Shown: piece after piece, positions 3,685 to 29,117 of the stretch | Position numbering within the stretch: position 1 is the first letter of the stretch | How the letters are laid out: each line of letters starts with the position of its first letter | Source: Candidatus Zixiibacteriota bacterium | GTDB taxonomy: Bacteria > Zixibacteria > MSB-5A5 > GN15 > FEB-12 | Direction: 5' to 3' | Assembly (NCBI GenBank): GCA_022571845.1 | Contig: JACZXB010000014.1 | Location: forward strand, 1-32,217 | Length of the DNA: 32,217 nt | Notes under the pieces: model-generated | Told to the model about the DNA's origin: nothing | The model's input: the letters and a program-made list of their open reading frames with translations, nothing else | The model's database searches: none | Program-made: the position numbers and the translations under genes

Positions 3685-4620
3685 ATGGCCAGAATATCTA
3701 ATCAGACCAAAGAAATCATTAACATTATTCTGTTCTTTTTGATGGTAGGAATCCTGGTAACTTTCTACTGGATCTATCCGCTGAGCCTGGCCAAAACCGG
3801 CATGGGCAGAAATGACCTCAAAGAATATAGTGACATGCTGGACACATTGTCGGAGCTGCCTAACGAAGCATTGCTCTGGGAAGAGGCCGGTCTTAAACCG
3901 GATACTTTCCGGGTAGATGCCGACGGGCTGACTACTTTGGCCTGTCTGCGCCTTCAGCCTGAAGACAGTGCGATCGGGACGGTATTTCTCCTGCATAATG
4001 ACAACCAAAATCGCGACTCGATTCTATGGCTGGCTTCAGCTCTTGTGCAAAACGGTTATATTGTATTAGCCTGTGACCAGCGAGCCTCGGGACGCTCCAG
4101 CGGCCAGTATCGGGGAGGCGGCCAGTACGAATCTTCTGATTTAGACGAGCTTATAGCGAATATAGATTTGCGTTATCGTATTCAACGTCCGCTGTTTGCT
4201 GTCGGTTTTGGTACCGGTGCAGATGCGGTTATTCTCTCTTCGCAAAAAGAAAGCCGCCTTGATGCCATCGTTGCTATAGAGCCATACCTGACTTCGACCC
4301 GCCTGTTAAATAAACTTAAGGAACAGCATGAAATGATCTGGTTTCCATTTTTCAGGTCGGTTGTCTGGTGGTGGTATGAAATGCGCTCAAGCTACGCCGT
4401 AGAGTACAGGGAGATTTCGGATATTGTTTCGGCAGAAATTCCTACTTTATTATTCGTGCCAGAAGAAGATTTGGAAGATGAAGAAGTGAGGCAGATTCTG
4501 ACAATATCAAAAGAGGCTGAGAGATTGATGATAAAGAAAACGCCGACCGACAGAAAAAAGCTAGAACAGATGCTTTTGGATTTTATCAATAACCAGCCAG
4601 CCGAATCTCCGACTTTATAA
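3685..4620 (+). CDS. Membrane-anchored alpha/beta hydrolase-fold protein lacking catalytic residues
   Basis: The protein has 311 residues. Residues 11-35 form one hydrophobic N-terminal helix (IINIILFFLMVGILVTFYW), so it is probably a signal anchor with the rest in the periplasm. From about residue 97 it follows the alpha/beta hydrolase layout: strand GTVFLLHN, then YIVLACDQRASGRSSG, then the nucleophile elbow at 174-178. The elbow reads GFGTG, so the catalytic Ser of the usual G-x-S-x-G is Gly176. The only His residues are 104 and 215, and none is near the C terminus where the catalytic His belongs. The fold seems kept and the chemistry lost, so a binding or scaffolding role is more likely than hydrolysis. 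The next gene starts 12 bases downstream, suggesting co-transcription with the AhpD-like selenoprotein. The ribosome binding site is weak. Confidence 0.75.
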   Translation: MARISNQTKEIINIILFFLMVGILVTFYWIYPLSLAKTGMGRNDLKEYSDMLDTLSELPNEALLWEEAGLKPDTFRVDADGLTTLACLRLQPEDSAIGTVFLLHNDNQNRDSILWLASALVQNGYIVLACDQRASGRSSGQYRGGGQYESSDLDELIANIDLRYRIQRPLFAVGFGTGADAVILSSQKESRLDAIVAIEPYLTSTRLLNKLKEQHEMIWFPFFRSVVWWWYEMRSSYAVEYREISDIVSAEIPTLLFVPEEDLEDEEVRQILTISKEAERLMIKKTPTDRKKLEQMLLDFINNQPAESPTL

Positions 4621-4632
4621 AGCTGATAATTT

Positions 4633-5187
4633 ATGGCTTTCATAAAATACATTTCCTATGACGAAGCTTCCGAAGAACTAAAAGCACTCTATGAAAAATA
4701 CGGCGGCAAGAACAAAATTCCGGCCAATATAGTCAGGATTGCCGGTTTTAACCCAAAGGCACTGGCCGCCCATATAGATTTATACAAGGCGATAATGTTC
4801 GGCAAGTCTCCTCTCAGCCGTGACCAGCGGGAGATGATAGCCGTAGTTGTCTCTGCTATAAATGGTTGCCACTACTGAATTGAGCATCACTGGTCCGCGT
4901 TGCGGGCTCTGGGGAATGTCGAAGATTCGCTTAAAGAGCAACTGGTCAGAGATTTCAAGTCTGCAGAGATATCTGATCTGGATAAAGCCATTTTGGATTA
5001 CGCCGCCAAATTAACCAAAGAGCCGGCATCTATATCCGTGAGCGATGTCAGTGATTTTCGAACCAAACACTCCGAACTAAATGACCATATGCTTCATGAT
5101 ATTGTTCAGGTTGTTTCATATTTCAATTATGTCAACCGCTTAGCTGACGGCCTGGGGGTTGAACTCGAAGAGCGCGACAATAAATAA
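4633..5187 (+). CDS. AhpD-like (carboxymuconolactone decarboxylase family) selenoprotein, TGA read as Sec82
   Basis: Read straight through one in-frame TGA at 4876-4878, this is a 184-residue AhpD/CMD-family protein. AhpD proteins carry the signature E-x11-C-x2-C-x3-H. Here Glu67, Cys79, codon 82 (TGA) and His86 fit it exactly, with TGA at the second, nucleophilic Cys (NGCHY-U-IEHHW). Both halves belong to the same family and frame: helices such as IPANIVRIAGFNPKALAAH come before it, and ILDYAAKLTKEPASI and VSYFNYVNRLADGLGVEL after it. A hairpin sits just downstream (separate entry). The expected activity is reduction of peroxides or of a partner disulfide through a Cys-Sec pair. The alternative is a pseudogene with a nonsense mutation or a sequencing error. 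The position of the codon and the intact second half argue against that. The gene follows the hydrolase-like gene by 12 bases. No selA, selB, selC or selD lies in the window. Confidence 0.85.
4876..4908 (+). promoter_or_regulatory. Putative bacterial SECIS element after the Sec UGA
   Basis: Immediately after the TGA, GGTCCGC (4892-4898) can pair with GCGGGCT (4902-4908), allowing G-U pairs, around a GTT loop. The loop begins 21 bases after the TGA, and its first base is G. Bacterial SECIS elements lie within the coding sequence just behind the UGA, with a small apical loop about 16-37 bases downstream and a G early in the loop. The fit is good but was found by eye. A folding calculation and covariation among relatives would test it. 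Confidence 0.6.
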
Positions 5188-5210: not shown

Positions 5211-5335
5211 TGTAGGTCAGGAACCTTGTGTTCCTGACAATCTCTTCTTGGCAGAACCGCTAAAGGGTTCTGCCCTACTTTTCTAGGCGGACATGGTCCC
5301 GAGCGTAGTCTCGGGAGTCGAAGGGTGACAGCCAC
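5211..5335. repeat. Cluster of three small palindromic intergenic repeats
   Basis: Three hairpin units are packed between the selenoprotein gene and the asparaginase gene. Unit A at 5216-5238 has a perfect 9-bp stem (GTCAGGAAC/GTTCCTGAC, loop CTTGT). Unit B at 5250-5274 has a perfect 9-bp stem (GGCAGAACC/GGTTCTGCC, loop GCTAAAG). Unit C begins near 5286, with a 7-bp stem TCCCGAG/CTCGGGA at 5297-5316, followed by GTCGAAGGGTGA. Unit B recurs at 12584-12609 and unit C recurs, inverted, at 10191-10260. This makes them a dispersed REP/BIME-like family. In this convergent gap they could also act as two-way terminators. Confidence 0.75.
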
Positions 5336-13240: not shown

Positions 13241-14008
13241 TTACTTCAATTCTAAAGGGTTAATTGGTTCATCGTTTATTTTTACTTCATAATGCAGATG
13301 CGGGGCGGTGGACTTTCCGGTATTACCTGATAGCGCAATACGGCTGCCCGGCAAGACTTTGTCCCCTTTCTGCACCAAAATCTCTTTGTTATGGCCGTAA
13401 AGCGAGATAATGCTGTCATTATGTTTTAGAACGACAATTTTGCCGTAAACTTCATCATCACCGGTCATTACAACTTCACCAATAGCTGTCGCCAAAACCG
13501 GTGTTCCCTCGGCGCAGGCTATATCAATACCCGGGTGGTAGCGGGCCGAGTCATCTATCACAAAATCCTGTGAGATAAATCCCTGTATCGGCAAGCCCGA
13601 GGGAATGCTCATATCTGCCCCGGCAGAGCGTCTGACCGCCGCCATAGCTGTTTTATCAATTGAGGCAAACAATGTGGAATCATCGGGCAGCACCGGAAAC
13701 TTAATATCGATTCCGGCCAGTTCAATCAGGCGGCTGACAATGTCGCGGGTTTGATTTAAGTTTTGTTCTAACAGCTGCACTTTATACTGATATTTTAAGA
13801 GTCGTTCGTTTTCTTCTCTCAAATTATCGGCCATTGTTGCTTCGGCCAAAATTCTACCATAAAAAACAAAAAATAAAATTATACCAAGTATTAAAACACC
13901 GAAAGCACCGGCGACCGCCTGAAGAAGCCATTTGCGGACACGAATGCCGCGCTGGGCCTCTGCCCCTTCGGGGATGAACATAATGGTTATAAATTTCGAA
14001 CTTGCCAT
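13241..14008 (-). CDS. Membrane-anchored M23 (LytM-type) peptidoglycan endopeptidase
   Basis: The protein has 255 residues. A membrane helix spans about 28-50 (LQAVAGAFGVLILGIILFFVF), a coiled coil follows at about 57-98 (LREENERLLKYQYKVQLLEQ), and the LytM domain occupies 140-250. The zinc ligands are all present: His158 and Asp162 in HPGIDIA, and His239 in HLHYE, with His237 and His206 (YGHN) as catalytic partners. It should be active on cross-links in the periplasm. M23 proteins encoded next to bactofilins are positioned by the filament for local wall cutting and cell-shape control. It is separated from parB by nine bases. Confidence 0.92.
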   Translation of the reverse strand: MASSKFITIMFIPEGAEAQRGIRVRKWLLQAVAGAFGVLILGIILFFVFYGRILAEATMADNLREENERLLKYQYKVQLLEQNLNQTRDIVSRLIELAGIDIKFPVLPDDSTLFASIDKTAMAAVRRSAGADMSIPSGLPIQGFISQDFVIDDSARYHPGIDIACAEGTPVLATAIGEVVMTGDDEVYGKIVVLKHNDSIISLYGHNKEILVQKGDKVLPGSRIALSGNTGKSTAPHLHYEVKINDEPINPLELK

Positions 14009-14017
14009 TTTGTATTA

Positions 14018-14863
14018 CTAAATTCTTTTTAGAAGTGACACTATGCGCACCAGATCTTCTTCACCGTAGTACTCAATTTCAATTTTTCCTCTTTTGAGTC
14101 CATGCTTAATTTTTACCGACGTTCCCAGTAATTGTTTCAAAGTAGATTCAAAATCAGCAATCAACGGCGCTTTTCTTTTCGGAATCAAGCGTCTCTTTTT
14201 GATGCGCCTGATTGTTTCTTCAGTTTCCCGGACCGAAAAAGAGCCTTTGACAATCTGGTCGGCAAATTTCAGCATCTGCTCTTCGGTAGGCAGAGATAAT
14301 ACTGCCCGGGCGTGGCCTTCGGTCAGCCGCCCCTTTCTGACTAACTGCTGCACCGGTAGTGGTAAGGACAATAAGCGCATGACATTGGTCACCGAGGTTC
14401 TGCTTTTGTTGACGCGCCCGGCCAGCTGTTCGTGGGTCAAGCCGCACTTTTCCAGCAAAGTTGTAAAGGCGCAGGCAATTTCCATAGGATTTAAGTTTTC
14501 ACGTTGAATGTTTTCTACCAGAGCCAGTTCAAGTTTACGGGTGTCATCAGTTTCATCCATTACAATAACCGGCACTTCGGAAATATTTGCAAGTTTGGCG
14601 GCACGCAACCGGCGCTCTCCGGCAATGATGGTAAAGTCGCTGCCCGATTTCGTTACCACCAGCGGCTGCATAATACCGTCGGTCTTAAACGACTGCGCCA
14701 ATTCGCTAAGGCGTTCCTCGTTGAATGTCTGACGCGGCTGCATCGGATTTGGACTAATGCGATCAGTTGCTACCATCTTTAACTTATTAGCGGTAGTATC
14801 TGTCACAGTTTTATTGGGAATCAAAGCCTCTAGGCCGCGTCCTAACGCAATTCGATTATTCAT
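14018..14863 (-). CDS. parB: Chromosome partitioning protein ParB
   Basis: The protein has 281 residues, full length. It starts with the ParA-activating N-terminal tail (ALGRGLEALIP). The ParB/Srx CTPase domain follows, with ISPNPMQPRQ and the nucleotide motif GERRLRAAKLA. A helix-turn-helix region (LTHEQLAGRVNKSRTSVTNVMRLLSLP) recognises parS. The C-terminal segment (IKHGLKRGKIEIEYYG) serves dimerisation. ParB loads at parS as a CTP-dependent clamp and spreads, directing origin segregation with ParA. The start overlaps the parA stop by four bases. Two parS-like 16-mers lie nearby in rsmG and the mnmE-mnmG gap. Confidence 0.95.
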   Translation of the reverse strand: MNNRIALGRGLEALIPNKTVTDTTANKLKMVATDRISPNPMQPRQTFNEERLSELAQSFKTDGIMQPLVVTKSGSDFTIIAGERRLRAAKLANISEVPVIVMDETDDTRKLELALVENIQRENLNPMEIACAFTTLLEKCGLTHEQLAGRVNKSRTSVTNVMRLLSLPLPVQQLVRKGRLTEGHARAVLSLPTEEQMLKFADQIVKGSFSVRETEETIRRIKKRRLIPKRKAPLIADFESTLKQLLGTSVKIKHGLKRGKIEIEYYGEEDLVRIVSLLKRI

Positions 14864-15618
14864 CCTGCTATTACCTCTTTGGTGAGTGAAATATAATTTT
14901 CTGCACCGGTTGACATTATATCATAAAGGATTATCGGCTTGCCAAATGACGGCGCTTCAGATAACCGCACGTTTCGTGAAATTACCGTTTCATAAACGCG
15001 CTCGTCAAAATGTTTGCGAACTTCGTCCGAAACCTGTCTTGAGAGATTGAGCCTGCCGTCATACATTGTAAGCAGAACACCTTCGACGACAAGGTTCGGA
15101 TTCAAATTTTCTTTAACCAGATTGATGGTGTTCATCAACTGCCCCAGTCCTTCGAGTGCGAAGTACTCACACTGCATCGGAATAATAACCGAATCAACTG
15201 CCGTTAATACGTTGATAGTTAAAAGCCCCAGCGAGGGCGGACAGTCGATGATAACATAGTCGAACTTATCCGCTATTGGCGTCATCACTTTTTTCAGTTG
15301 ATACTCACGCGACATCATATTTACCATTTCAATCTCGGCGCCGACCAGTGATATCGACGACGGCAGGATTTTTAAGTACTCCAGGGCGGTCGCCTTAATA
15401 ACCTCTTTTGGAGAAGCGTTATTTATCAGGATGTCGTAGATTGACTGCTCTATATTATCCTTTGAAAGCCCTAGGCCGCTGGAGCTGTTGGACTGCGGGT
15501 CCATATCTACCAAAAGCGTCCTGTTTTCGGTGGCAGCTAAGCAAGAGGCCAGGTTAACCGCAGTTGTTGTTTTTCCGACCCCGCCTTTTTGGTTGGCAAT
15601 TGCAATTTTTTTACCCAG
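14860..15618 (-). CDS. parA: Chromosome partitioning ATPase ParA (Soj), probable CTG start
   Basis: The protein has 252 residues when read from CTG at 15618-15616. The deviant Walker A motif KGGVGKTTT begins at residue 11 (IAIANQKGGVGKTTTAVNLA), and VDMDPQSNSSSGLG and DYVIIDCPPSLG follow. Between an in-frame TAA upstream and the Walker A motif there is no ATG, GTG or TTG. CTG has AAGGAG six bases upstream and gives the normal N terminus (x-G-K-K-I-A-I-A-N-Q). A start at the first conventional codon would remove the ATP-binding loop. ParA binds DNA as an ATP dimer and is released by ParB. It is the first of the parAB pair, about 200 bases downstream of rsmG. Confidence 0.92.
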   Translation of the reverse strand: MGKKIAIANQKGGVGKTTTAVNLASCLAATENRTLLVDMDPQSNSSSGLGLSKDNIEQSIYDILINNASPKEVIKATALEYLKILPSSISLVGAEIEMVNMMSREYQLKKVMTPIADKFDYVIIDCPPSLGLLTINVLTAVDSVIIPMQCEYFALEGLGQLMNTINLVKENLNPNLVVEGVLLTMYDGRLNLSRQVSDEVRKHFDERVYETVISRNVRLSEAPSFGKPIILYDIMSTGAENYISLTKEVIAG

Positions 15619-15706
15619 AACAGACTCCTTAACTGATTACGGTTTCCTATAACTTCCCTTTAAGCTTATCTTTGGCTGAGTTTTCAAACAACAAAAAAGG
15701 AGACTG

Positions 15707-15873
15707 AGTCTCTTTCTTTTATTTACTGGATTTTCTTGAAAATCGTAAAGGCTTTGGCTGGCGAATCGTCACCGATAGCATAAAAACAGCTGGACGAAGT
15801 CTCTTTCTTTTATTTACTGGATTTTCTTGAAAATCGTAAAGGCTTTGGCTGGCGAATCGTCACCAGTAGCATA
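15707..15873. repeat. Tandem 76-bp duplication of the rsmG 3' end
   Basis: 15707-15782 and 15798-15873 are nearly identical 76-base copies, 91 bases apart. The right copy contains the true end of rsmG, including the stop, and the left copy is a tail fragment (YA-x-GDDSPAKAFTIFKKIQ and stop). They differ at two adjacent bases, turning Ala-Thr into Ala-Ile. The divergence favours a real, somewhat aged duplication over an assembly echo, although that cannot be excluded. Confidence 0.85.
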
Positions 15874-16431
15874 GGCATAGACAGTATAAGAAAGCTCCGG
15901 GGGGCATTTATCTGATCCAAAAGCACCATAGTAGATAAAAACGGCTGAATAAGATAATATCTCAGAAATCTTTTTTAGAATAGGACCAGAGAGACGGACT
16001 AAGCGGACAGTTATGAGATCAAAAGATTTATCAAAATCGATATCCTCGAATGTCTGCTCAATTATAGAGGGCTTTATTTTCAGCTCCAGTGAAATCCGTC
16101 TTAGAGCTGAGGCTTTTTTGTTTCTGCGCTCTATCAAGAGGGATTGTGCCGGATTTAAGGCTAATATGATAGGAATAGCAGGAAGCCCGCCGCCTGTACC
16201 GATATCAAGATACCTATTAACAGTCTCAAGGTCTAATTTTTCGAAGGGAACGAGAGACTCTGCTATGAGTCTCTTTAAGTCTGAGGCAGATGTTTCCCGT
16301 GAAACAAGATTAGTTTTCTCGTTTTCTAAAGTCAGCAGGCTTAGATAATCTTGAAATCTACCATCTCGGGAATGTTTCTTAAGAAGATCCTCTATTTTGA
16401 CTTCAAAAAAGGAGCTCTCTGAATCGGCCAC
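15814..16431 (-). CDS. rsmG: 16S rRNA (guanine527-N7)-methyltransferase RsmG
   Basis: The protein has 205 residues. It carries the SAM-binding motif YLDIGTGGGLPAIPI (about 74-88), ERRNKKASALRR as the next SAM loop, and the typical N-terminal lead-in SLLTLENEKTNLVSRET. It methylates N7 of G527 in 16S rRNA in the cytoplasm. It starts with GTG, sharing its G with the mnmG stop (TAGTG), so the two are coupled. This is the conserved mnmE-mnmG-rsmG-parA-parB order. A parS-like site lies inside the gene and its tail is duplicated downstream. Confidence 0.93.
   Translation of the reverse strand: MADSESSFFEVKIEDLLKKHSRDGRFQDYLSLLTLENEKTNLVSRETSASDLKRLIAESLVPFEKLDLETVNRYLDIGTGGGLPAIPIILALNPAQSLLIERRNKKASALRRISLELKIKPSIIEQTFEDIDFDKSFDLITVRLVRLSGPILKKISEILSYSAVFIYYGAFGSDKCPPELSYTVYAYATGDDSPAKAFTIFKKIQ
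16291..16306. promoter_or_regulatory. parS: parS-like ParB-binding site inside rsmG
   Basis: TGTTTCCCGTGAAACA matches the parS consensus TGTTTCACGTGAAACA at 15 of 16 positions. It lies about 1.4 kb from parB within rsmG. parS sites commonly lie within a few kilobases of parAB, sometimes in coding sequence. Confidence 0.75.
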
Positions 16432-18299
16432 TATGCTGTCGCCTTGTGCCTTTTTAAGTGAACAGAAAGTACTGCGACATCGCCCGGTGTGATTCCTTCC
16501 ATGCGGCTAGCCTGCCCTAATGAATCCGGGCGGAAACGTTGAAATTTCTCGGTAGCTTCCTGTTTTAGCCCCGTAATCGCTTGAAAAACAAAATCTTCCG
16601 GGATAGTCTCATGTTCCAATTTCTTAAACTTGTTGATTTCTCGCTGCTGCTTTTCGATATACCCTTGGTAGCGGATAATAATTGCGGCTCGTTCCAGGAC
16701 TTCAGGCTGGTCAGCAAATTCGCTATTATGTAAAACCAATAGAGGCATTGCCTTCTCAATACTTATCTGAGGTTGCTTGAGGAAATGCTCCAAGGTCATA
16801 CTATTCATATTGTTAAGTTCATTAGCGTACTTCCCCAAATCCACTGCTGCAAGTCGAACTTTCTTGAAACTCAAAATAGCTGTCTCGGTTTTGCTTTGAA
16901 GCTCCCGGAATGAATTTAGCACAGCTTTTGGAAGAAGATTATACTTTCGGGCGTAGTCAGCCATTCTGTCTCTGGCGTTATCTTCGCGCATTGAAAGTCT
17001 GTATTCGGCTCTGGAAGTAAACAGGCGGTATGGCTCGGTGGTCGAGCGCGTTGTCAAATCATCAATCATGACTCCGATATAACCTTCAGAACGGTCTAAT
17101 ATAAACGGCGGCTCCTTTTCGAGATGCAAGACAGCATTAATGCCGGCCATAAGTCCCTGTCCGGCTGCTTCTTCGTAGCCTGAAGTCCCGTTTATCTGAC
17201 CGGCAAAGAAAAGCCCTTTGACCAGGTGAGTTTCTAAATTTGCTTTGATCTGACGTGCCGGGCAGTAGTCATATTCGACCGCGTAGCCCGGGCGGGTTAT
17301 TTCCACTTGCTCCAGTCCGGTAACCGTTTTGATAGCAGCAGCTTGGACATCTTCGGGCAAAGAGGTTGAAAAGCCATTCGGATAAACTTCGCTGGTGCCG
17401 TTTCCTTCGGGCTCCAAAAAGAGCTGATGACGTGGTTTATCTACAAATCGGTAGAACTTATCCTCGATAGACGGGCAATAGCGCGGGCCGGCCGAATTTA
17501 GCTGGCCCGAAAAAATAGGGGAGCGTTTGATATTTTCTAAGATAATTTCTTTGGTTTTAGCTGTGGTATAGGTCAGATAGCAGGGCGTTTGCTTAAAAGC
17601 GTCTCTTTTGGTCTGATGCGAAAAGAGCGGCATCGGTTCATCTCCCGGCTGAATCTGGCATTTGTCCCAGTCAATAGAATCTCCATTGAGGCGGGGCGGC
17701 GTACCGGTTTTTAGTCTAGAGATTTCAAAACCTAATTCCCGAAACGAATCAGAAAGTTTATAAGCTGCATTTTCTCCAAAGCGACCAGCCTTGATCTTCT
17801 TTTCACCAATGTGAATCAGTCCGCCTAAGAATGTACCGGTAGCTACTATTATCGCACCACATTGTATAAGCGCTCCCGATTCTGTCCTGATTCCTTTTAC
17901 TCTGCCATTCTCTGTCAGAATTTCGCCGGCCAAGTCTTCGATAACCTCAATCCTAGCCTCTCCTGAGACATGCTCAACCACATAATCATTATAATAACGG
18001 CGGTCGCACTGCACCCTGGTAGACCAAACCGCCGGACCTCGCGATAAGTTTAGTCTCCGAAATTGAATCCCCGAAGCATCAGCAGCCATGCCCATAATTC
18101 CGCCCAGAGCATCTATCTCTTTGACGACGTGAGATTTGCCAATCCCGCCGATAGCAGGGTTGCAGGACATAAGCGCTAACTTTTTAGCGTCCATGGTGAC
18201 AATAGCAGAAGTTTTACCCATTCGTGAAGCGGCCAGAGCGGCTTCAACTCCGGCATGTCCGCCGCCTATTATAACTATGTCAAAATCTTTATAAGTCAT
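16431..18299 (-). CDS. mnmG: tRNA uridine-34 carboxymethylaminomethyl modification FAD protein MnmG (GidA)
   Basis: The protein has 622 residues, full length. The FAD-binding motif GGGHAGVEAA is at 12-21. The two family signatures GPRYCPSIEDK and TSGYEEAAGQGLMAGINA are present, as is the long helical C-terminal region that contacts MnmE. With MnmE it adds the cmnm group to U34 of tRNAs, using FAD and a folate donor. It lies between mnmE (95-base gap with a parS-like site) and rsmG (one-base overlap). Confidence 0.96.
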   Translation of the reverse strand: MTYKDFDIVIIGGGHAGVEAALAASRMGKTSAIVTMDAKKLALMSCNPAIGGIGKSHVVKEIDALGGIMGMAADASGIQFRRLNLSRGPAVWSTRVQCDRRYYNDYVVEHVSGEARIEVIEDLAGEILTENGRVKGIRTESGALIQCGAIIVATGTFLGGLIHIGEKKIKAGRFGENAAYKLSDSFRELGFEISRLKTGTPPRLNGDSIDWDKCQIQPGDEPMPLFSHQTKRDAFKQTPCYLTYTTAKTKEIILENIKRSPIFSGQLNSAGPRYCPSIEDKFYRFVDKPRHQLFLEPEGNGTSEVYPNGFSTSLPEDVQAAAIKTVTGLEQVEITRPGYAVEYDYCPARQIKANLETHLVKGLFFAGQINGTSGYEEAAGQGLMAGINAVLHLEKEPPFILDRSEGYIGVMIDDLTTRSTTEPYRLFTSRAEYRLSMREDNARDRMADYARKYNLLPKAVLNSFRELQSKTETAILSFKKVRLAAVDLGKYANELNNMNSMTLEHFLKQPQISIEKAMPLLVLHNSEFADQPEVLERAAIIIRYQGYIEKQQREINKFKKLEHETIPEDFVFQAITGLKQEATEKFQRFRPDSLGQASRMEGITPGDVAVLSVHLKRHKATA

Positions 18300-18362
18300 C
18301 TGAACTTTCTCTAAGCTTGAATTTATATGAAAAATAAAGAAAAGCGAATAGAAAAGACCGTG

Positions 18363-18378
18363 CGTTTCATGTGAAATA
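18363..18378. promoter_or_regulatory. Degenerate parS-like site between mnmE and mnmG
   Basis: CGTTTCATGTGAAATA matches the parS consensus at 13 of 16 positions and keeps the central inverted GTTTCA/TGAAA. It lies in the 95-base gap upstream of mnmG. A weaker ParB site is plausible, though the three mismatches leave this less certain than the site in rsmG. Confidence 0.45.
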
Positions 18379-18394
18379 TTTAAATAGTCAGACG

Positions 18395-19795
18395 TTATTT
18401 ACCAATGCAGAACTTTGAAAAAATCTGCCCCAGAATATCCTCATTATATATGCGGCCGGTTATCTCGGCCAGTTCACTTGCTGCCTGACGAAGGTCCAGG
18501 GCGGTTAACTCCGGCGACTGATTTTCGGCTAACTTAGATTTTGCCTGAGCTATTTCGTCAAGTGCTGATTTCAACTTTTGCATGTGACGCGCCGAGGTTA
18601 CGACCAGGCCGGAAGTCAGGTCCGGCATAGATTCAGCTATCCTGTTGACTAAAACACTCTTAAAGCTGTCAACTCCCTGGCTGGTAAGACATGACAGAGG
18701 CAGCACATTATGATCAGAAATGAATTTCTTAGTTTTCTCATCAAGAGAAACTTTGTCGATCTTATTGCCTAAAATAATTGAATTTCTATTTAGATCTTCG
18801 CTTAAGTCTTCAGACAAAAAATCCGCCCATTTTTTCTGAGAAAGGTCGGCCATCCAGACAATCAAATCCGCCTGGTTCATAATTTTCTTCGCTGAGCTCT
18901 GGCCGGCTTTTTCTATAACACCGCCACCGCTTCTGAGACCGGCTGTGTCTATAATGTTGACGGCCTGTCCTCCCAGTTCAATCCATTCCGACAGGTAATC
19001 TCTGGTGGTACCCGGGGTCGGAGTTACCAGAGCGCGCTCCTGTTTTAAGAGCAGATTAAAAAGTGATGACTTGCCTGCATTGGGTCGGCCGGCGATGGCA
19101 ACTTTGAAACCTTCACTGATTATCCTGCCGCCTGAATACGAATCCGCCAGCTCTTTTATCGACCGGGCCAGATTACTTAACCGTTTGACAAGTTTGCTGG
19201 TTTCTTCGGGGTCAATTTCTTCTTCAGGAAAATCAATAGAAGCTTCGACCTCGGCCAATATTTCGATTAGCTCGGTGCGAAGTTTTTCGATATGCTTGGA
19301 GTAATTTCCGATTAAGTGCTCTCTGGCAACATCAAATGATTTTTGGGTGTTGGCTTCGATAATTTCCGCCACAGCTTCGGCTTTGCTTAAGTCTATCCGC
19401 CCCGATAGAAAGGCAAGTTTTGTAAACTCTCCCGGTTCGGCTGCTCTGGCTCCTGACTTTAACAGAATTTCCTGAATCTTTTTGGCAACTAAAGAGCCGC
19501 CATGGCTGAATATCTCTATTTGCTCTAAGCCGGTATAGGATCTTTCTTTGGGCATGAAGACAGCCAGGATTTCATCTATTTTTTCAAGCTTGTCGTCGAC
19601 AAAAAACCCGTAACGCATCAGAAACGGTTTGAAGTCTGATTCATTTTTTCGGACAGCTCTAAAGTGTTTTGATAAAAGAGCGAGGCTTTGCCCGCCTGCT
19701 AAGCGAATAGCAGCAATGCCGCCTTCACCCGGAGGCGTGATAATAGCGACAATTGTATCCTCATTTGTCGAAGATTTTTGACTTGCGCTTGTCAT
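18395..19795 (-). CDS. mnmE: tRNA modification GTPase MnmE (TrmE)
   Basis: The protein has 466 residues. The N-terminal folate-binding domain contains TIVAIITPPGEGGIAAIRL. The GTPase domain has G1 GRPNAGKS at 236-243, then TPGTTRDYLSEWIEL, DTAG and NKID. The C terminus is CIGK (463-466), the essential Cys motif. It acts with MnmG on tRNA U34. It starts with ATG 12 bases after the yidC stop. The common jag/khpB gene between yidC and mnmE is not present. Confidence 0.96.
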   Translation of the reverse strand: MTSASQKSSTNEDTIVAIITPPGEGGIAAIRLAGGQSLALLSKHFRAVRKNESDFKPFLMRYGFFVDDKLEKIDEILAVFMPKERSYTGLEQIEIFSHGGSLVAKKIQEILLKSGARAAEPGEFTKLAFLSGRIDLSKAEAVAEIIEANTQKSFDVAREHLIGNYSKHIEKLRTELIEILAEVEASIDFPEEEIDPEETSKLVKRLSNLARSIKELADSYSGGRIISEGFKVAIAGRPNAGKSSLFNLLLKQERALVTPTPGTTRDYLSEWIELGGQAVNIIDTAGLRSGGGVIEKAGQSSAKKIMNQADLIVWMADLSQKKWADFLSEDLSEDLNRNSIILGNKIDKVSLDEKTKKFISDHNVLPLSCLTSQGVDSFKSVLVNRIAESMPDLTSGLVVTSARHMQKLKSALDEIAQAKSKLAENQSPELTALDLRQAASELAEITGRIYNEDILGQIFSKFCIGK

Positions 19796-19807
19796 CTATT
19801 GATTTGC

Positions 19808-21532
19808 TCAGGAGGTTTCTACTTTTTTTGCTTTGGGCCGCTTAAAGAAAACGTAGTCAAGCAAAGAGAATACTGAAAAACTTGTCCAGTACAAAACCAG
19901 TCCGGCTGCAAAGCTGTAAAATATAAAACCCATAAAGAGCGGCATAATATACATTATCATTTTGTTCTGCTGAGTTGAAGCCATCGTAATTTTCTGCGAC
20001 ACAAACTGAGCGCCTATCATAACTAAGACCAGCAAAATGTAGGGGTCAGTCAGGCCGGAGGCGCCGCGCGAGAGGTCATCGATGAACCAGAAAAAAGGCG
20101 CTTCACGAAGAAGTATAGTTGAGCGAAAAACAGAAAAAAGTGCAAAGAAAAGCGGCATTTGCGGCAGCATCGGCAGGCAGCCGGAAATAGGATTTACTCC
20201 GTGCTTTTTATAGAGCTTCATCATTTCCTTATTTAAGGCCTGCGGATCTTTTTTATGTCTTTTTTTCAACTCCTCGAGTTTGGGCTGGATATCTTTCATG
20301 GCCTGCATAGACTTAAAAGATTTTAGTGACAGCGGCAGAGTAATAATCTTAACCAATAGCGCAAACAGGATAATTACAATGCCGTAGTTGGGGATGAAAT
20401 CATACATTCGCGGCAAAATCCAGACAATAGCAATTGCAAACGGCTTTATCAGCCAGCCGACATAAGGGGTGGTGCCAATACCCAGAATATCTTCAAGCCC
20501 GACATCGTATTCCGATAGCAGATTATAATCCATTGGTCCGACAAAGATCGTAAAGCTGTCGGCAAACGAAGGAACATATTCGATTGGCAGATTAAGTCCG
20601 GCAATAATCTCGCGTCCTTCGACAGGGCCATCATTGGTCATTATTGTGCCAATCTGACCGCGGGCAAAAACTCTGTCGGCGGCTTTGCTCTGCGGGATAA
20701 TAATTGATGCAAAATATTTTGAGCGCAGACCGGCCCAGTGCGTGACGCCGTCAAGGGTCTGGTTAAGTCTGTCATCTTTGTAGTCGTCGAGCATCACTCT
20801 CGAGTCACCCAACATGGCCACCGCCGCCATCTCCTGGTAGTCCTGTTCGACCTGAGGTTCGGTTACTCCCGGAGGGGTATTCCAGACAATCTGGTATTGA
20901 CGCTCAAACCCGAACTGGTCCCGATTGCGAATTTCTATAACCAGCTCAAAGTGGTATTTGTCCGGATAAAATTTGTAGTGCTTAATCAGCTCACCGCCAT
21001 TGCCGTAGTTGTAGCGGTAGGTCACTTCGATTGCTTCAGATTCGGCGTAGTAAGTTCCCGCAGGTTTACTGCTGCTGTAATGAACTTTTGAAGCAGAAAA
21101 AGTCTCTGCTGCGAACGTAAAATCTGGCGTGGCGTTCTTGGACAAGCTCAGCATATCAATTTGTCCGTTACCGCCATAACTGTATTCTTTTAATAAGAGA
21201 GTAACAAGTCCCCCGCCGTAAGAACTGAGACTTACTTCGTATTTATTAGTGATTATTTTGACAGTATCAATTCTTTGTGTCCCGGCTGCAACGCTGGCGG
21301 TATCAGTTTTGAAAGGATCATAAGGTTGATAGGCCTGAGGTGATTGGTCAGATAATATTTGAGGCTTACTGTCGTCGGCCTGTCTGAGTTCTGATTCAGC
21401 CTGTGAAGTAGTGTCGGCAGTTTTTTCCTCTGGCGGCGGCGGCTCATACAGCCCCAGCATCTCAAGCAGGGGATAGTAAAAGATTATCAGCAGCGCCAAA
21501 ACTATTATGATGGGGAGAGTTTTCTTATCCAA
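19808..21532 (-). CDS. yidC: Membrane protein insertase YidC
   Basis: The protein has 574 residues, the long type found in diderm bacteria. It has an N-terminal membrane helix (LPIIIVLALLIIFYY), a linker, a large periplasmic beta-sandwich domain (about 90-350) and the conserved insertase core. The core includes ITLPLSLKSFKSMQAMKDIQPK and NPISGCLPMLPQMPLFFALF. It inserts inner-membrane proteins alone or with SecYEG. The start is TTG with AAAGGA eight bases upstream. It follows yidD by 28 bases in the rpmH-rnpA-yidD-yidC order. Confidence 0.96.
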   Translation of the reverse strand: MDKKTLPIIIVLALLIIFYYPLLEMLGLYEPPPPEEKTADTTSQAESELRQADDSKPQILSDQSPQAYQPYDPFKTDTASVAAGTQRIDTVKIITNKYEVSLSSYGGGLVTLLLKEYSYGGNGQIDMLSLSKNATPDFTFAAETFSASKVHYSSSKPAGTYYAESEAIEVTYRYNYGNGGELIKHYKFYPDKYHFELVIEIRNRDQFGFERQYQIVWNTPPGVTEPQVEQDYQEMAAVAMLGDSRVMLDDYKDDRLNQTLDGVTHWAGLRSKYFASIIIPQSKAADRVFARGQIGTIMTNDGPVEGREIIAGLNLPIEYVPSFADSFTIFVGPMDYNLLSEYDVGLEDILGIGTTPYVGWLIKPFAIAIVWILPRMYDFIPNYGIVIILFALLVKIITLPLSLKSFKSMQAMKDIQPKLEELKKRHKKDPQALNKEMMKLYKKHGVNPISGCLPMLPQMPLFFALFSVFRSTILLREAPFFWFIDDLSRGASGLTDPYILLVLVMIGAQFVSQKITMASTQQNKMIMYIMPLFMGFIFYSFAAGLVLYWTSFSVFSLLDYVFFKRPKAKKVETS

Positions 21533-29048: not shown

Positions 29049-29117
29049 CTCCACTATAATACATCAGTTATCAGCCGATTCCACCAAATTTTCTGCTAAT
29101 AAACCGATATAACTGTT

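Follow-up and report, generated by a model that had tools for sequence, protein, structure and literature searches.

An AhpD-like gene with an in-frame TGA codon in a Zixibacteria-like genome

The window analyzed here, a 32,217-nucleotide stretch from the genome of a Candidatus Zixiibacteriota bacterium, carries on its forward strand a gene for an AhpD-like protein with a CxxU motif (4633-5187). When TGA is translated as selenocysteine (Sec), the gene encodes 184 residues from the ATG at 4633 to the TAA ending at 5187, with the TGA at 4876-4878 corresponding to codon 82. Upstream lies a gene for a membrane-anchored alpha/beta-hydrolase relative (3685-4620, forward strand), and a hairpin with a GTT loop follows the TGA on the same strand (4892-4908). 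Just 3' of the gene, a pattern scan alone identified two terminator-like hairpins (5216-5274, forward strand), which possibly mark the end of the transcription unit. Under the standard code, an 81-codon fragment and a downstream open reading frame of 95 amino acids are obtained, the split that the first-pass annotation of this DNA had expected from gene calling; reading of the raw sequence recovers the selenoprotein that ordinary calling would divide.

The translated product matched TIGR01926 (peroxidase-related/AhpD-like proteins) with 132.5 bits against a cut-off of 81.8 and the Pfam family CMD (PF02627) with 48.6 against a cut-off of 23, whereas its score for TIGR00777, AhpD sensu stricto, was 24.7 against 191.95 bits. 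By these profiles the protein is assigned to the peroxidase-related branch and not to the TIGR00777 branch. The TIGR01926 match spanned residues 3-177 and the frame was intact, in agreement with the proposal that the sequence continues past the TGA as a single protein. Likewise, the family signature E-x11-C-x2-C-x3-H was recovered exactly as proposed, with Glu67, Cys79, TGA codon 82 and His86 forming the set E67-x11-C79-x2-U82-x3-H86. The residues E67, C79 and H86 as well as position 82 were invariant among 23 aligned relatives, and the proton-relay set was thus complete. In Mycobacterium tuberculosis AhpD the equivalent residues are Glu118, Cys130, Cys133 and His137, and in this mycobacterial protein and Pseudomonas PA0269 a Glu, two Cys, a His and one water molecule constitute a proton relay (PMC3141380). 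By analogy with these two proteins, E67, C79, U82 and H86 would form the active site of the present protein. It shares with them the proton-relay motif and the two-helix core (PMC3141380), but differs in carrying Sec in place of the second Cys and in belonging to the TIGR01926 branch.

A structural model built from the 23 relatives had a mean pLDDT of 87, and its best match in the PDB was 3c1l (Mlr4105). Foldseek returned with a TM-score of ~0.8 the same solved structures that were the closest by sequence (3c1l, 2pfx and 6k40), and also matched PA0269 structures. Mlr4105 and the other "peroxidase-related" structures showed 35-37% identity in the structural alignment, but they contain Cys where the present protein has Sec.

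Selenocysteine machinery and the identity of codon 82

The host genome (2.75 Mb, 21 contigs, 98.8% complete) was found to contain selA, selB, selC and selD, the complete set of genes of the Sec trait that the first-pass annotation had proposed to look for. The tRNA-Sec gene (selC, anticodon TCA) scored 71.3 bits, over the cut-off, selA (409 bits) and selB (331 bits) directly adjoined each other on contig 1, and selD scored 389 bits. The match to selD (G000:C2:167049-167969, locus L055) covered nearly its whole length and included one in-frame TGA of its own; on this basis the host SelD is probably a selenoprotein itself.

Codon 82 was TGA in 31 related rows and TGC or TGT in six, with no other residue in any relative examined, so that the UGA/Cys exchange typical of bacterial selenoproteins was observed. 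The TGA rows came from the family, order and class of the host and, in addition, from Chloroflexota and Bacillota, while the Cys rows came from Ignavibacteriota and other families of the host's class. Some rows represent one organism in two collections, and the 37 sequences in the tree comprise 35 distinct ones. In this unrooted tree, from which the direction of change is not readable, Sec and Cys forms were separated by one branch with 100/100 support. Downstream of the TGA, dN/dS values of 0.15-0.24 indicated purifying selection. So long an open frame on either side of a TGA is rare in the window and more than expected by chance: of 1250 such triplets, counted on both strands, only two were preceded by at least 82 and followed by at least 102 open codons. 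The second of these, on the minus strand at 29064, is no more than an open stretch between genes that runs into the next gene. A TGC or TGT misread as TGA at 4876-4878 had been named as a possible refutation, but the triplet is not a sequencing error, since it is also present in independently assembled relatives; the close relatives bearing it are Zixibacteria-like metagenome-assembled genomes. These comparisons identify TGA codon 82 as a Sec codon, with C79 as the first and U82 as the second member of the C79-x-x-U82 redox pair. Extra in-frame stops suspected in two homologs (L028 and L034) were discarded, as the translations contained the TGA at codon 82 as their sole internal stop and the other stop marked the C-terminus of the match.

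A conserved and covarying hairpin follows the TGA codon

The hairpin was located 14-30 nt past the TGA, at the position originally claimed for it. Its 7-bp stem pairs 4892-4898 with 4902-4908 around the GTT loop, with a folding energy of -9.8 kcal/mol. Taken alone, the hairpin of the window is not energetically exceptional (z = -0.47 for 4870-4925). Because this single-sequence energy was not significant, conservation was used as evidence, and the support for the element consists of conservation, covariation and absence from Cys homologs. The folding energy of the 30 nt after the TGA ranged from -6.7 to -13.0 kcal/mol among the Sec genes, all of which have the hairpin, and from -0.1 to -1.7 kcal/mol among the Cys genes, none of which has it. 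Across 17 distinct hairpins in the same register, 99.2% of cells were paired and three pairs exhibited changes on both sides. The covariation score of these 17 hairpins was 0.403 versus a shuffled mean of 0.204 and was reached by none of 500 shuffles, and sliding of the partner strand destroyed the pairing. Restriction of the hairpin to Sec genes together with its compensatory changes, which were also the outcome of the folding check suggested earlier, identifies 4892-4908 as a bacterial SECIS. Furthermore, a stem change from CC/GG to AT/AT went together with substitutions at protein residues 88 and 91, T..R becoming N..H for instance, and the RNA constraint of the stem thus appears to shape the protein sequence.

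Relationship to known AhpD-like selenoproteins

AhpD-like CxxU selenoproteins were first found in the Sargasso Sea with 27 sequences (PMC1088965), and "AhpD-like 1", with 299 sequences, was one of the most frequent groups in the GOS set (PMC2398784). The family was entered with COG2128 in a 2022 review (PMC9312934) and with TIGR01926 in Table 1 of a 2026 review (PMC13188914). Since such proteins (TIGR01926/COG2128) have been catalogued since 2005, the Zixibacteria gene is correct but ordinary in kind. The first-pass annotation had regarded AhpD-like selenoproteins as few; that others are known held true, but they represent a catalogued family rather than a rarity. The present protein shares with "AhpD-like 1", whose representative was compared by description, a TIGR01926 score over the cut-off, the CxxU motif, the UGA with a downstream SECIS and the existence of Cys homologs. 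It differs in its host, a Zixibacteria-like candidate phylum, and in its gene neighborhood, and no mechanistic difference was found. The AhpD core with CxxU is also common to NF041238 (AhpD-related selenoprotein) and NF041047 (GSU3128 family), but the scores of the present protein were 61 against a cut-off of 175 and 21.5 against a cut-off of 110, respectively.

What is added here is the lineage, the covariation evidence for the SECIS and the gene context, in the form of a set of AhpD-like Sec genes with covarying SECIS elements from one candidate phylum. Additional AhpD-like open reading frames with an in-frame TGA were noticed in related genomes (L045, L046, L047, G043:C19:83226 and G048:C207:5438). 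In L045, L046 and L047 the TGA occupies the second Cys position (CVH-U, CRY-U), hairpins follow it in L046 and L047, and some of the proteins are short (~140 amino acids). These open reading frames probably represent further AhpD selenoprotein subfamilies in the phylum.

The selenoprotein gene adjoins a hydrolase relative without the nucleophile serine

The hydrolase relative ends 12 nt before the selenoprotein gene, and the two are probably co-transcribed. It matched PF12146 with 31.9 bits against 27, both sequence and model indicated an N-terminal membrane helix, and its modest model (pLDDT 63) matched the fold of esterases in Foldseek (~1e-9). The nucleophile elbow reads GFGTG. In all eight aligned homologs the position of the nucleophile serine was G, D or E, so that the Ser of G-x-S-x-G was lacking, and no invariant His was found. 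Given these replacements, the product is very probably a pseudo-enzyme. The pseudo-hydrolase family (the window gene and homologs L059-L088) contains invariant WFP and WWY motifs and, within the host's family, often stands upstream of a flavodiiron protein.

The pseudo-hydrolase was present in 65 of 98 related genomes versus 37 of 98 with any AhpD match, which weakened the idea that it is dedicated to the selenoprotein. In 15 genomes it was followed by a flavodiiron protein at a distance of 76-205 nt, and in seven genomes the selenoprotein gene came 18-170 nt after that flavodiiron gene. In seven others, namely the window genome, two congeners, G021, G033, G043 and G045, the selenoprotein gene directly followed the pseudo-hydrolase; no flavodiiron match at E <= 1e-60 was obtained there with one query in these partly draft genomes. 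The adjacency of pseudo-hydrolase and selenoprotein is conserved in g1, g4 and g20. The pairing with a dead hydrolase described in the first-pass annotation was therefore borne out in so far as the hydrolase lacks its nucleophile serine and the adjacency is real and conserved. Since a flavodiiron protein usually comes right after it, the hydrolase is a standing neighbor of the locus in this lineage and not a selenoprotein-specific partner. The open-access literature yielded nothing on operons of AhpD and flavodiiron proteins, and the sole open-access paper found with both Zixibacteria and a selenoprotein did not include AhpD.

Downstream, a gene of the Asparaginase_2 family (PF01112; 5371-6471, minus strand) is convergent with the selenoprotein gene and is a conserved neighbor in L011, L013 and L020.

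Proposed function and alternative explanations

The proposal of an AhpD-like selenoprotein with Sec at the second catalytic Cys was favored by the family score, the Sec genes, the TGA/Cys exchange and the covarying hairpin. Overall, we consider it very likely (probability of roughly 0.95) that the gene encodes a TIGR01926 selenoprotein whose UGA is decoded through tRNA-Sec, SelB and the hairpin, and which probably serves as a peroxidase or peroxiredoxin adaptor in oxygen/peroxide defense. UGA 82 would be read as Sec by tRNA-Sec and SelB, steered by the immediately downstream hairpin, to give an all-helical protein bearing the AhpD proton-relay site E67/C79-H-Y-U82/H86. The selenolate of Sec82 would attack a peroxide or an oxidized partner, C79 would then resolve the selenenic acid, forming a selenenyl-sulfide, and the protein would be re-reduced by a thiol system of the cell. 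It may thereby either function as a peroxidase itself or serve a peroxiredoxin as its adaptor reductant, helping a lineage that seems to be anaerobic or microaerophilic to withstand oxygen and peroxide. The weak peroxidase activity that was all PA0269, a structural relative, displayed (PMC3141380) counts against the peroxidase reading. The genome encodes elsewhere a 1-Cys/AhpC-type peroxiredoxin C-terminal domain, which makes the adaptor role possible; no ahpC-like gene was found among the immediate neighbors of the selenoprotein gene.

The arrangement of flavodiiron, pseudo-hydrolase and selenoprotein genes suggests an oxygen/peroxide-defense locus and offers a role open to testing for the CxxU AhpD-like proteins, which have been little studied. 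As a tentative extension, the pseudo-hydrolase, the flavodiiron O2/NO reductase and the Sec-containing AhpD could form one oxygen/peroxide-defense cassette in this candidate phylum. The selenoprotein would then either complement the flavodiiron protein or, in genomes without one such as the window genome, work on its own, and the pseudo-hydrolase would act as a membrane scaffold or sensor for the cassette.

A different thiol/selenol reaction of the CMD/AhpD kind, such as Bmp8-like dehalogenation or sestrin-like regulation, perhaps tied to the membrane pseudo-hydrolase, is rather unlikely. The model also matches the debrominase Bmp8 (6ohi/6ohj) and sestrin, members of TIGR01926 are mostly functionally uncharacterized, and the pseudo-hydrolase is the immediate neighbor in this genus. 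Against such a reaction, the proton-relay set of AhpD is retained in full, its nearest structural matches belong to peroxidase-related and antioxidant proteins, and a flavodiiron protein adjoins the gene in the family's other genera, as would fit oxygen/peroxide defense.

That the TGA is a true stop, leaving a pseudogene or two separate fragments, is highly improbable. The two standard-code fragments agree with this view, and a single genome with a genuine stop would look alike, but the TGA is kept at one codon over several families and three phyla with the frame intact and Cys as the only alternative residue, and selection downstream, the covarying SECIS and the Sec machinery also speak for selenocysteine. 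A pseudogene or sequencing error was ruled out by the conserved TGA, the independent assemblies and purifying selection. Reading of the TGA as another amino acid, through general recoding (e.g., as Trp) or readthrough, would also leave the frame open past it but can practically be dismissed, as TGA terminates five of the 23 larger open reading frames of the window and is therefore not generally recoded, the exchange is with Cys and never with Trp, and tRNA-Sec, selA, selB and selD are all present.

Elsewhere in the window, M23 peptidase-, parB-, parA-, mnmG-, mnmE- and yidC-like genes stand in a row (13241-21532), as is typical of a replication-origin region.
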